In this document: positions 9,822-51,387 of the stretch, piece by piece
Layout: every line of letters begins with the position of its first letter
Numbering within the stretch: the stretch's first letter is position 1
DNA from: Chloroflexota bacterium
Lineage (GTDB): Bacteria; Chloroflexota; Anaerolineae; Anaerolineales; Villigracilaceae
Assembly (NCBI GenBank): GCA_016191845.1
Contig: JACPVF010000007.1
Location: 434,001-498,000, forward strand
Direction of reading: 5' to 3'
DNA: 64,000 nt
The notes under the pieces: generated by a model
Told to the model about the DNA's origin: nothing
The model's input: only the letters and a program-made list of their open reading frames with translations
Databases searched by the model: none
Position numbers and translations under genes: made by a program

Positions 9822-10400
9822 ATGTTTATCGATTATCTGACCCTGATCATGATCAATATGGTGGCAGGCACCGCCCTGCTGGCCTACTATTTGTGGAAAG
9901 GCATGGACGAGGCGGACCAGCGTCCCTATGCCGCCGCCTTCTTCGGTGTAGGCCTGCTCTCTCTGATCACAGGGCTGCAACTGTCCTTCACCTGGCCTCT
10001 GCCCGGCAGCTACAATGTAGGATATGGCGACACCACCACCCTGTTCGGCGTGGTCTTTCTGATCACGGCCATTGCCCTCTGGCAAGGCTGGAATCTGGTC
10101 CCGGTCAGCCTGTATGCGTTCTTTGCCGGCATAGACGCCGTCATCGTGGGCATCCGCATCTTCTCGTTGCAACTGACGAAGGAGCCGTTGCTCTCGGCCG
10201 TCGGCTTCGTGTTGGCCGGCCTGGGAGGCTTGGGGGCCGCGCCGTTCTTCCTGTGGTTCAAAGGCAACAAGACCGTCCGCATGTTGGGCGTGTTGCTGCT
10301 CTTAGCGACGGCAGCGCTGTGGGCGGTGACCTTCTACGGCTCATTGTGGGGTCACCTCGACAGCTTCAGCAAGTGGGTTCCCGCTACGATGGGCAAATAG
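9822..10400 (+). CDS. DUF981-like integral membrane protein
   Basis: A 192-residue protein with about six predicted membrane helices. It starts MFIDYLTLIMINMVAGTALLAYYL, and the opening FIDYLTL..NM..G pattern is typical of DUF981 proteins, whose function is unknown. Later helices include FFGVGLLSLITGLQ, FGVVFLITAIALW, GFVLAGLGGLG and VLLLLATAALWAV. AAGGAG lies 6 nt before the chosen ATG; an in-frame upstream ATG at 9789 has no ribosome site. An interrupted palindrome, GGACA-CATA-TGTCC at 9781-9794, lies just upstream and might be an operator. It is monocistronic; the next promoter begins 5 nt after the stop. Confidence 0.7.
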   Translation: MFIDYLTLIMINMVAGTALLAYYLWKGMDEADQRPYAAAFFGVGLLSLITGLQLSFTWPLPGSYNVGYGDTTTLFGVVFLITAIALWQGWNLVPVSLYAFFAGIDAVIVGIRIFSLQLTKEPLLSAVGFVLAGLGGLGAAPFFLWFKGNKTVRMLGVLLLLATAALWAVTFYGSLWGHLDSFSKWVPATMGK

Positions 10401-10404
10401 CGGC

Positions 10405-10432
10405 TTGACAAGCCATCCGCCGCGCATATAAT
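10405..10432 (+). promoter_or_regulatory. Promoter of the thrS leader
   Basis: Consensus TTGACA at 10405-10410, 16-nt spacer, TATAAT at 10427-10432. Confidence 0.8.
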
Positions 10433-10440
10433 AACGGAAT

Positions 10441-10703
10441 ACTGAAAACGCGTTGACCGAGATGAGTAGGCTGGTCCCGTTTCTGACAGGGAGAAGTGGC
10501 CGTTGATTGAGAGCCATTTCCAGAAGCCCCACCGAAAACCACTCGCGAGCATGACCTTGAACCCGCCCTTCGACTTCACTCAGGGCGAACAGTATGGGAA
10601 ACGGCTGGCCCCGTTATCGGCTTAAGAGATACCCCGCAAGGGGTAAATCGGGTGGAACCGCGTGAGCTTAACTCTCGCCCCGTGTTGGGCGAGAGTTTTT
10701 TAT
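10441..10703 (+). promoter_or_regulatory. T-box riboswitch with terminator, thrS leader
   Basis: A tRNA-sensing leader upstream of thrS. The conserved T-box sequence GGTGGAACCGCG is at 10651-10662. It is followed by the terminator stem AACTCTCGCCC (10670-10680) / GGGCGAGAGTT (10687-10697) and a T run. A GATGAGTA segment near 10460 fits the stem I GA/AGTA motif. GAAA-ACC-A at 10535-10541 is a plausible specifier region reading the threonine codon ACC, which agrees with the downstream gene. Uncharged tRNA-Thr binding should favour the antiterminator and allow readthrough. A dispersed palindromic repeat (10564-10587) is embedded between stem I and the T-box. The specifier assignment is inference. 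Confidence 0.88.
10564..10587. repeat. Dispersed palindromic repeat, copy 1 (inside the T-box leader)
   Basis: Same 24-bp palindrome as at 53142-53165 (two differences in the centre). Its stem CGCCCT / AGGGCG would form an extra hairpin between stem I and the T-box. Confidence 0.7.
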
Positions 10704-10719
10704 TTACTTGGAGGTCGCC

Positions 10720-10770
10720 ATGACTGAAGACAGCACTACCTTCACTCGAACGCGACCCGCAGGCTGGTGA
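10720..10770 (+). CDS. Putative threonine-rich leader peptide
   Basis: A 16-codon reading frame encoding MTEDSTTFTRTRPAGW, five threonines in 16 residues (codons ACT, ACT, ACC, ACT, ACG). GGAGG stands 5 nt before the ATG. It lies after the T-box terminator and 66 nt before thrS. Its last codons form the 5' arm of a hairpin, ACCCGCAG (10755-10762) / CTGCGGGT (10777-10784). This is the classical layout of an attenuator leader peptide that senses threonyl-tRNA by ribosome stalling. No T run follows the hairpin, so if it acts it may control translation or RNA stability rather than termination. A chance small frame cannot be excluded. Confidence 0.55.
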   Translation: MTEDSTTFTRTRPAGW

Positions 10771-10836
10771 CCGTCTCTGCGGGTTGCGGAAATATCGACA
10801 GACGGTACCAGACAAAAGTCAAGAAAGGAAGCCAGA

Positions 10837-12648
10837 ATGGCAGAACAAATTCAGGAAAAGTACGAAGAGTCCCAACTCTATAAGATCCGTCACTCGGCCG
10901 CGCACATCATGGCGCAGGCCGTGCTGGAGTTTTATCCCGACACGAAGTACACGATCGGGCCGCCCGTCGAAAACGGGTTCTATTATGATTTCGAACTGCC
11001 CGAGCAGATCACGAATGAAGATCTCGAAAAGATCGAGAAGCGCATGCGCCAGATCATCGCGGGCCATCATGAGTTCAGGAAGGAAGTCATCTCGGCCGAC
11101 GAGGCGCGCGTAGTCTTCAAGGATCAGCCCTATAAGCTGGAGCTGATCGACGGCCTCGAAAAGGGCGGCCTCGACGAGTATGGCAATCCGCTCGATACGA
11201 AGCCCGACATCTCGCTCTATCGCCACGATACGTTCACGGACCTGTGCCGTGGTCCGCACGTGGAGAACACGAAGCAGATCAACCCCGCCGCGGTCAAGTT
11301 GACGTCCATCGCGGGCGCGTACTGGCGCGGCGACGAGAACAACAAGATGCTGACGCGCATCTACGGCACGGCCTGGCGCACGCCCGACGAACTGAAGCAA
11401 TATCTGCAGATGCTCGAAGAGGCCAAGAAGCGTGACCACCGCAAGCTGGGCAAGGAACTGGACATCTTCTTCTTCGACGATGAGGTGGGTCCCGGCCTGC
11501 CGATGTGGATGCCGAACGGCGGCATCATGATCGAGGAACTGGAAAAACTCGCCAAGGAAATGGAAGACGCCGCGGGTTATTCGCGTGTGCGTACGCCCAA
11601 CCTGACGAAGGAAGACTTGTTCCTGCGCTCGGGCCACCTGCCCTACTACGCCGAAAGCATGTACCCGCCCATGGAACTGGAAGGCGTGAAGTATTACGTC
11701 AAGCCAATGAACTGCCCGATGCATCACAAGATCTTCGGGGCCCGTCCGCACTCGTACCGCGACCTGCCCATCCGCCTGGCGGAATACGGGACGTGCTATC
11801 GCTACGAGAAATCGGGCGAGTTGTTCGGCCTGATGCGCGTGCGCTCGATGCAGATGAACGATGCCCACATCTACTGCTCTGAGGAACAATTCGAGCAGGA
11901 ATTCATGGGCGTGATCGACTTGTACAACAAGTACTTCGACATCTTCGGCATCGAGAAGTACGTCATGCGCCTGTCGCTGCACGGCAAGGCGGGCCTCGGC
12001 AAGAAGTACGTGGACAACGAGCGCCTGTGGATCAAGACGGAAGACATGGTACGCCGCGCGATGACGAACGGCAAGGTGCCCTTCGTGGAAGTCCAGAACG
12101 AAGCCGCCTTCTACGGCCCCAAGATCGACGTCCAGATCTGGTCGGCCATCGGACGCGAGTTCACGCTGGCGACGAACCAGGTGGACTTCGCCGTACCCGA
12201 GCGCTTCGACCTGAAGTTCGTCAACAAGGAAGGCGCGGACGAGATCCCGCTGTGCATCCACCGTGCGCCGCTCTCCACGCACGAGCGCATGATCGGTTTC
12301 CTGATCGAGCACTATGCGGGCGCGTTCCCTGTCTGGCTGTGCCCTGAGCAGGTGCGCGTCATCCCGATCACGGATGGCCAGAACGATTACGCTGCCCAGA
12401 TCGCGGCCCAACTGCGGGCGGAGGGCATCCGCGTCAGTGCGGACATGAGCTCCGAGCGCATGAATGCCAAGATCCGCCAGGCGCAGTTGATGAAGGTCCC
12501 GTACATGCTGGTGGTCGGCGCCAACGAAATGGCGGCGAGACTCGTCTCGCTGCGTGCCCGCGACGGCAGCCAACAGAACAACATCGCGCTGGGCGATTTC
12601 ATCGCAAGGGCGAAGGATCGGATTGCACGCAGAGCGAAGGAACTGTAA
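10837..12648 (+). CDS. thrS: Threonyl-tRNA synthetase lacking the TGS domain
   Basis: A 603-residue class II synthetase that charges tRNA-Thr. It begins almost directly with the editing domain (RHSAAHIMAQ near residue 18, which holds the HxxxH site) and so lacks the usual 60-70-residue N-terminal TGS domain. The catalytic core shows MNCPMHH (zinc cysteine), NDAHIYC (zinc histidine), FYGPKID and LSTHERM. The anticodon-binding domain starts near CPEQVRVIPITD and ends with the LMKVPYMLVVGANEM segment. AAGGAAG precedes the ATG. Expression is expected to be controlled by the T-box and possibly the threonine-rich leader peptide upstream. A bidirectional hairpin separates it from the convergent WD40 gene. 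Confidence 0.96.
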   Translation: MAEQIQEKYEESQLYKIRHSAAHIMAQAVLEFYPDTKYTIGPPVENGFYYDFELPEQITNEDLEKIEKRMRQIIAGHHEFRKEVISADEARVVFKDQPYKLELIDGLEKGGLDEYGNPLDTKPDISLYRHDTFTDLCRGPHVENTKQINPAAVKLTSIAGAYWRGDENNKMLTRIYGTAWRTPDELKQYLQMLEEAKKRDHRKLGKELDIFFFDDEVGPGLPMWMPNGGIMIEELEKLAKEMEDAAGYSRVRTPNLTKEDLFLRSGHLPYYAESMYPPMELEGVKYYVKPMNCPMHHKIFGARPHSYRDLPIRLAEYGTCYRYEKSGELFGLMRVRSMQMNDAHIYCSEEQFEQEFMGVIDLYNKYFDIFGIEKYVMRLSLHGKAGLGKKYVDNERLWIKTEDMVRRAMTNGKVPFVEVQNEAAFYGPKIDVQIWSAIGREFTLATNQVDFAVPERFDLKFVNKEGADEIPLCIHRAPLSTHERMIGFLIEHYAGAFPVWLCPEQVRVIPITDGQNDYAAQIAAQLRAEGIRVSADMSSERMNAKIRQAQLMKVPYMLVVGANEMAARLVSLRARDGSQQNNIALGDFIARAKDRIARRAKEL

Positions 12649-50999: not shown

Positions 51000-51380
51000 G
51001 GGGATGACAGGCTTCGACGGGAGAGGCTGGTCCCGGAATGCGAGCCGAGAGCGCACCGAACTCGATAACTCAGTGCAACCATTAAGTGCCAATCGCACTT
51101 CCTATGCTGCTATGCCCCTCGCCGCCTAAGGTGAGACCATAACAGTACAGTCTCCTAGATGAGACTGCGTCCGCCGGCCCCGTTCTCCACCCGGTGACGG
51201 ATCGGGCGACACAATGATGGAGCGCTGCGCATGACGCTGCTAAATGCGCCTAAGACCAGCAGATGGCTGTCGGGTTACCTGCCCGCCGAGATCCCGACAG
51301 TGACAAAATTCGGCAGGCTACGCTCGTAGAGTTCCGAGGGTCGATTCTTTCGGACCCGGGTTCAATTCCCGGCATCTCCA
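51000..51380 (+). ncRNA. ssrA: tmRNA
   Basis: Transfer-messenger RNA of about 381 nt for rescue of stalled ribosomes. The 5' end GGGGATG-ACAGGCTTCGAC and the 3' end GGTTCAATTCCCGG-CATCTCC-A pair as a tRNA-like acceptor (one G-U pair); CCA is not encoded. The tag frame runs 51088-51129 (GCC...TAA) and encodes ANRTSYAAMPLAA, ending in the LAA degron read by ClpXP-type proteases. Pseudoknot-like G/C-rich arms follow the tag. A hairpin terminator lies 8 nt downstream. Confidence 0.96.
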
Positions 51381-51387
51381 CCTTCGC

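Follow-up and report, generated by a model that had tools for sequence, protein, structure and literature searches.

As a rule, a gene for an aminoacyl-tRNA synthetase carries a single tRNA sensor. The leader of thrS in a 64,000-nucleotide (nt) stretch of a Chloroflexota genome (contig JACPVF010000007.1, positions 434,001 to 498,000; hereafter the window) raises the question of whether one such gene can carry two. An earlier note on this DNA had described a 16-codon frame with five threonine (Thr) codons and a GGAGG site behind the terminator of a T-box riboswitch, and had called two tRNA-Thr sensors in series an unusual circuit. We found the frame as described (MTEDSTTFTRTRPAGW followed by a stop codon, with an ATG start, at 10720-10770; GGAGG at 10710-10714; all features lie on the forward strand). 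It is part of a module of leader frame and pseudoknot that recurs before thrS in related genomes, mostly of uncultured Chloroflexota. The two sensors probably do act in series, with the ribosome on the translated Thr leader peptide deciding whether the pseudoknot folds and so setting thrS output.

Conservation of the leader frame

We searched 150 genomes of the home family and found a thrS match in 144. We read 132 thrS leaders (130 as loci L009-L038 and L072-L171, plus those of G067 and G112); in G090 and G099, the leader read held less than 300 nt upstream of thrS. The module was present in at least 44 of the 132 leaders, in 11 of 26 genera, and always lay between the T-box and thrS. We scored frame and codons by script in 43 of the 44 module-bearing leaders, the 44th being that of G067. 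The elements scored had been chosen beforehand by eye and with a model, and reading frame was no criterion in the scripted search pattern.

The start codon (ATG in 42 leaders, GTG in one) was in frame with P1, the first stem of the pseudoknot, in all 43 leaders, across five different lengths (7, 8, 10, 11 and 12 codons). Thr accounted for 135 of the 392 codons between start and P1 (34%), compared to 906 of 16563 codons (5.5%) in 36 long open reading frames (ORFs) of the window. This is a ~6-fold higher frequency, and it gives the frame the enrichment in cognate codons that characterizes an attenuator leader. The other two frames of the same leaders held 30 and 3 Thr codons among 349. Codon choice also differed, as ACT made up 81 of the 135 leader Thr codons compared to 10% of the Thr codons in the long ORFs.

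One Thr codon has a fixed place. In all 43 leaders, Thr was found at codon -4, counting back from the P1 core codon (ACT in 39, ACC in two and ACG in two); in the window, this is the ACT at 10744-10746. The remaining Thr codons varied in place and number, and the total ranged from one to five Thr in a leader; an additional Thr codon was present at -2 in G000 and a few relatives. A fixed Thr codon accompanied by others that shift favours selection for codons that a ribosome reads over selection for an RNA motif. These data argue that the leader frame is under selection, given elements that were pre-chosen by eye and model. The earlier note had proposed to look for the frame in related thrS leaders, and to give up the idea if frame or Thr codons were lost while the T-box was conserved. 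The relatives instead kept both frame and Thr in every scored leader.

We used R1, a model of P1 plus its flanks, to assess where the module occurs in the 150 family genomes. R1 gave 37 matches at E < 1e-6, all directly before thrS and at most one per genome; in G000, the window genome, it gave one match in total. At E values from 1e-6 to 1e-3, five of seven matches lay at thrS, and the other two (G112 and G011) lay elsewhere and were chance-like. The modules of G076 and G097 were found by eye, outside the R1 matches. We inspected 14 weak family matches, of which G067 had a true element at thrS and 13 were chance-like. A scan of 80 named genomes flagged 12 elements, all already in the module set and none additional, and missed the element of G067. 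The named module-bearing records are metagenome-assembled Chloroflexi, mostly labelled Anaerolineales or Anaerolineae. Two divergent thrS types occur in the family, ~80% and ~55% identical to the window thrS (G047, G019, G004, G013 and G038; many genomes of other families), and the module precedes both types (G047, G152). One further thrS leader (L107, G037) showed no clear module and held a stretch, GTCAGCGCCCGGGTGAG, that resembles leader codons and is perhaps a decayed module copy.

The two crossing stems

The earlier note had also seen that the last codons of the frame form one arm of a hairpin. This hairpin stands, as P1, with arms at 10751-10762 (within the leader frame) and 10777-10788. 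It is only half of the structure, and a second inverted repeat had been missed. The 12-nt arms of P1 in the window are 92% complementary, the remaining pair being G-U. The second repeat (ACCGTCT at 10770-10776 and AGACGGT at 10800-10806) crosses P1 and is prolonged by CTGGT at 10764-10768 and ACCAG at 10807-10811. Because the two repeats cross, they would form an H-type pseudoknot. The 5' arm of the second stem, P2, thus spans 10764-10776 in the P1 loop (P2a CTGGT, a bulged G, and P2b ACCGTCT), and its 3' arm spans 10800-10811; P2b is supported by the inverted repeat and by covariation, and P2a was read from the sequence. Nested folding of the region, which does not model pseudoknots, gave a z of -2.27 compared to shuffles, 4 of 200 of which folded equally well.

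In 39 aligned sequences, 89.2% of P1 cells were paired, compared to 36 to 58% when partners were slid. Five of ten P1 pairs had changed on both sides, and the covariation score was reached in 0 of 500 shuffles. Fitting of the alignment to P1 biases it in favour of this stem, and 28 of the 39 sequences left one particular pair of the ten unpaired. P1 was short (4 pairs in the scripted search) and interrupted by bulges in G137 and G095.

P2 had been left out of the search model. The best P2 helix per genome scored a mean of 18.1, compared to 14.2 when 3' partners were swapped among genomes (maximum of 300 swaps, 15.8) and 11.9 for shuffled letters. The score was at least 13 in 44 of 45 elements (the 43, G067 and G152; the exception was G095), with the helices of G067 and G152 entered by hand and the 35 distinct helix strings differing partly in length only. 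A model-free scan for a Shine-Dalgarno site, start, Thr codon and two crossing stems recovered the architecture in 31 of 43 module leaders and in 1 of 87 family leaders without the module (shuffles, 1 of 86 and 1 of 174). Two crossing helices, each with compensatory changes, identify the element as an H-type pseudoknot by sequence, and the covariation argues that both stems are under selection.

A protein could be the reader of such a structure. The E. coli thrS operator is bound by threonyl-tRNA synthetase (ThrRS) and has no leader peptide. The thrS module would resemble it in controlling thrS at the RNA level after transcription start, and differs from it in having a leader frame. If the pseudoknot were likewise an RNA operator bound by a protein such as ThrRS itself, the frame would be secondary. 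The strong covariation of P1 and P2 and the restriction of strong model matches to thrS would fit an operator, and the authors of the work on the LEU element of actinobacterial leuA preferred a binding protein as well (PMC1262725). The frame and the Thr at -4 were kept in 43 of 43 leaders, however, and the other Thr codons shift in place and number yet remain at ~6 times the long-ORF frequency. Moreover, no unpaired position in the linker behind the P1 3' arm was more than 79% conserved (to column 141 of alignment A5). We consider an operator with a secondary frame improbable.

The P2 5' arm and the P1 3' arm lay mostly within a few bases of each other, and the linker measured 12-22 nt (n=43). 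With so few bases between them, a full P2 and P1 could hardly coexist. A change between the pseudoknot and a long P2 hairpin would thus be possible, and P2 was a continuous helix of 13-16 pairs in G005, G065 and G136. REP-like (repetitive extragenic palindromic) or palindromic repeats were inserted in several loci (L111, L164, L126, L122, L132, L152 and others), either behind the T-box and ahead of the leader, within P2, or in the stretch from pseudoknot to thrS.

Ribosome position and thrS output

Counted from the first base of its A-site codon, a ribosome covers ~11 to 12 nt. The P1 core codon starts 12 nt from the first base of the fixed Thr codon, and the front of a ribosome paused there would thus just touch P1. 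In 40 of 43 leaders, the stop followed the P1 anchor by 7 to 34 nt; in G032, it lay far behind P1, following an insertion.

The module, with its frame, fixed Thr codon, two stems and link to thrS, was observed directly, also where a T-box is absent. For its working, we propose the following sequence. The T-box would read uncharged tRNA-Thr and RNA polymerase would pass the terminator. The short Thr-rich leader would then be translated, and scarcity of charged tRNA-Thr would make the ribosome pause at a Thr codon. If its A site holds the fixed Thr codon, the front edge of the ribosome would stand just before the first P1 core pair, and the pseudoknot would fold and stay folded; a pause at any Thr codon up to the fixed one would leave the pseudoknot free in the same way. 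When charged tRNA-Thr is plentiful, the ribosome would pass the P1 5' arm, reach the stop (which lies in the loop, within P1 or directly behind it) and dismantle the pseudoknot. Folding of the pseudoknot would set the amount of thrS, the folded state most likely giving more, through protection or processing of the mRNA, through Rho, or through hand-over of ribosomes.

We assessed the known outputs of leader peptides. The window from 10380 to 10900 showed the T-box terminator and no second intrinsic terminator, and the relatives were not scanned for terminators. Transcription attenuation, which needs an intrinsic terminator behind the leader, was set aside for the window on this ground.

In classical translational attenuation, the P2 5' arm would mask the thrS Shine-Dalgarno site unless paired with the P2 3' arm. 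Many thrS sites of module genomes read GGAAGC and can pair with GCTTC of P2. The P2-site score was 13.4, compared to 11.8 for the sites of module-less genomes (maximum of 300 draws, 13.1). P2 and site did not covary, as own pairs scored 13.4 and swapped pairs 13.0 (maximum of 300 swaps, 14.0). Folding showed hardly any change in access to the site, and some genomes have long insertions between pseudoknot and site. We rejected site masking by P2 as the main mechanism on the missing covariation and the near-constant predicted access, and give classical translational attenuation little credence.

The likeliest output in our model is that the transcript is shielded from Rho or RNase. Here, the paused ribosome and the pseudoknot would together shield the RNA between leader and thrS, which is the proposed ribosome-gated pseudoknot with its output stated and not a competitor to it. 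In its favour, the window leader has no second intrinsic terminator, the genome encodes Rho, and the stretch from leader stop to thrS start is left untranslated for 39-177 nt (median 69, n=42). In that stretch, C did not outnumber G (mean C minus G, -0.03, n=42), which speaks against Rho. Repeats between pseudoknot and thrS in some genomes argue against a fixed geometry. In this specified form, we regard Rho- or RNase-dependent control as possible and somewhat doubtful.

Several observations weigh against a ribosome-gated pseudoknot. Predicted access of the thrS ribosome site was 0.75 with the ribosome paused, 0.71 with it at the stop and 0.73 with the leader free (nested folding only). It differed by more than 0.1 in 6 of 42 leaders, always in the direction of a more open site when paused. 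With access nearly constant across ribosome positions, no output is visible. Third codon positions of the leader frame were barely more variable (1.10 bits) than first and second positions (0.91 and 1.05 bits). The relatives are not independent of each other, and the elements were chosen partly by eye. In G104 (L133), the leader stops at a TAG before P1, with P1, P2 and the Thr codon kept. In G047 (L165), it has no stop before thrS and reads in frame into thrS as a 741-codon open frame. A further warning comes from the LEU element, a leader peptide with a pseudoknot. According to the conclusion of the paper, mutations of the Leu codons had no influence on regulation; according to its background section, leader mutations had some effect, inconsistent with classical attenuation (PMC1262725). 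If Leu codons are dispensable there, Thr codons might be so here.

Finally, 88 of the 132 family thrS leaders had no module, most of them with a T-box. Together with apparent remnants of the P2 3' arm in G114, G040 and G050 (by eye), this would suit a frame that is a functionless relic or has arisen by chance. Frame, Thr codon and compensatory changes are kept across 11 genera and in a second family, and we consider a functionless frame very improbable.

T-box and module within and beyond the family

We extended the search to 201 genomes of the order and to a class sample of 298 genomes. The order-wide search gave a weak match in G152 (L257/L229), a genome of another family whose thrS is 54% identical to the window thrS. 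Its module consists of the leader MTNPNTNTIKRPRQRL, P1 GCGGCCCcGGCAaAGG/CCTCTGCCGGGCCGC and P2 TGAACCGC/GCGGTTCG. This second family comprises five genomes (G152, G190, G165, G178 and G202). The module of G190 (L262) has the leader MTNDHKNTIRRIG, P1 GCGGAT/GTCCGC plus further pairs, and P2 TGAGTCGC/GCGATTCG; the change from C-G to T-A in P2 between G152 and G190 is compensatory. Relative to the P1 core codon, both leaders again have Thr at codon -4, and they have Arg at codon -1 (codons aligned by eye).

We did not find a T-box match up to E 0.01 within the fetched thrS loci of G152 and G190. G165 and G178 had T-boxes (81.5 and 74.3 bits), and we did not find the module there; in G202, the thrS start was not found. 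In this small family, the module and the T-box thus appear mutually exclusive, as if one had replaced the work of the other. The occurrence of the module without a T-box raises our confidence in a ribosome-gated pseudoknot. It also qualifies the earlier picture of a circuit defined by two sensors: the series of Thr T-box and conserved Thr leader, now with an RNA structure, holds in the home family, and the module can stand alone in G152 and G190. Both genomes have a possible alternative fold, as the 3' arm of P1 is also able to pair with a stretch that overlaps the 3' arm of P2 (CTCTGCCGG/TCGGCAGAG in G152; TCTGCCGA/TCGGCAGA in G190, seen by eye).

Three borderline matches of the order search (G173, G254 and G273) were read and rejected, leaving G152 as the only true element among the four. 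The class-wide model search gave matches at E 0.01 in 8 of 298 genomes, all of the home family. We also assessed 80 thrS leaders drawn from 12 further families of the order. Model R2 and a scan for frames containing three or more Thr each found the module in one of them (G152). The model-free scan of the same 80 gave two, G152 and a likely chance match in G213 (shuffles, 2 of 160). G190 lies outside these 80 and was found only by reading its leader. Since the scans miss G190, they may miss more distant members as well.

The T-box itself was identified by four features. RF00230 matched over its full model at 10444-10685 (88.3 bits, E 5.8e-20), slightly under the gathering score of 93, and the T-box is absent from the Rfam list at the gathering threshold for the window region. 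The Thr specifier codon ACC lies at 10538-10540 within GAAA-ACC-AC (sequence and RF00230 alignment), and the T-box sequence GGGTGGAACCGCG lies at 10650-10662. The terminator hairpin (10670-10697), an inverted repeat with a T-rich tail to 10706, precedes the gene. The T-box motif was found upstream of the module in 44 of 44 leaders, and the specifier pattern GAAA-ACC-AC[TC][CT]G in 35 of the 43 scored. The motif pattern was present in 120 of 130 family leaders, with variant motifs in several of the other ten (by eye).

Upstream of the T-box, a promoter TTGACA-16-TATAAT (10405-10432) matches the consensus at 12 of 12 positions. The leader Shine-Dalgarno site follows the terminator, its GGAG being invariant across the 39 aligned sequences. 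Behind the leader frame and pseudoknot come the thrS Shine-Dalgarno site (10824-10829) and an ORF for 603 amino acids (10837-12648), which we take to be threonyl-tRNA synthetase from family motifs and from its naming in the earlier note. The order over 10405-12648 is thus promoter, T-box, terminator, GGAGG with leader frame, pseudoknot and thrS. Rfam 15 gave, for the window region, the T-box and two chance-level matches, and nothing that fits the leader-peptide module.

Seven of the eight T-boxes of the window genome (loci L001-L008 and the window) scored under the Rfam gathering threshold, although their adjoining genes fit (by eye); T-boxes of Chloroflexota may thus be under-reported in Rfam. 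By eye, no such module followed the seven other T-boxes, and only that of ileS had a short Ile-rich frame. This 12-codon frame, MDIEIGIIPVAE, has four Ile codons and a GGAGG (G000:C13:283148-283395; L006, L359). It occurred in 1 of 30 family ileS leaders, hence is not conserved, and probably arose by chance; the ileS leaders of these 30 genomes have T-box motifs and lineage-specific repeats, with no conserved frame seen by eye between terminator and gene. At L001, a frame for a small membrane protein lies behind the T-box that precedes pheS (gene named by eye), and the T-box may control both. A transfer-messenger RNA (tmRNA) with the tag ANRTSYAAMPLAA lies at 51000-51383 of the window.

Precedents exist for both halves of the arrangement. 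The classical amino-acid attenuators thrL, hisL, pheL and trpL have a short leader rich in the relevant codons. The thrS module shares this leader and differs in that no terminator was found behind it in the window. In the rtpA (anti-TRAP) leader of B. subtilis, a ribosome that has reached the leader stop blocks the rtpA ribosome site close by. Control of rtpA by uncharged tRNA has been described as acting by 'tandem transcriptional and translational mechanisms' (PMC2896485; see also PMC11255114). The thrS leader likewise joins a T-box to a putative leader peptide, both specific for Thr, and tandem sensing as such is thus less novel than the earlier note had supposed. Unlike in rtpA, where the stop is next to the site, the thrS leader stop is separated from the start by the distance given above, with the pseudoknot between. 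In the LEU element, the other precedent, the ribosome site of leuA is paired with the run of Leu codons (PMC1262725), whereas we found no such pairing in the thrS module. The thrS module is moreover Thr-rich, lies before thrS and has a conserved Thr codon that neither stem includes. The two elements also differ in gene, amino acid and phylum.

A T-box before thrS is nothing unusual in Firmicutes; for two Chloroflexi genomes, a 2008 count gave six T-boxes, none named as thrS in the part of the source available (PMC2494555). Our searches of open-access papers turned up no account of a comparable thrS leader peptide. Tentatively, and with less conviction than we hold for the series of sensors, the module may represent a new class of leader-peptide switch. 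A Thr-reading ribosome would gate an H-type pseudoknot without a terminator or site masking, via an output not seen in known attenuators. As a portable module, it would replace the T-box in one family and be stacked behind it in another, where uncharged and then charged tRNA-Thr would be read.

The fixed distance between Thr codon and pseudoknot gives a definite prediction of where the ribosome would stand. The two-sensor leaders, the relatives with a T-box only and the second family with the module only offer a natural comparison of what each sensor contributes to the control of thrS.
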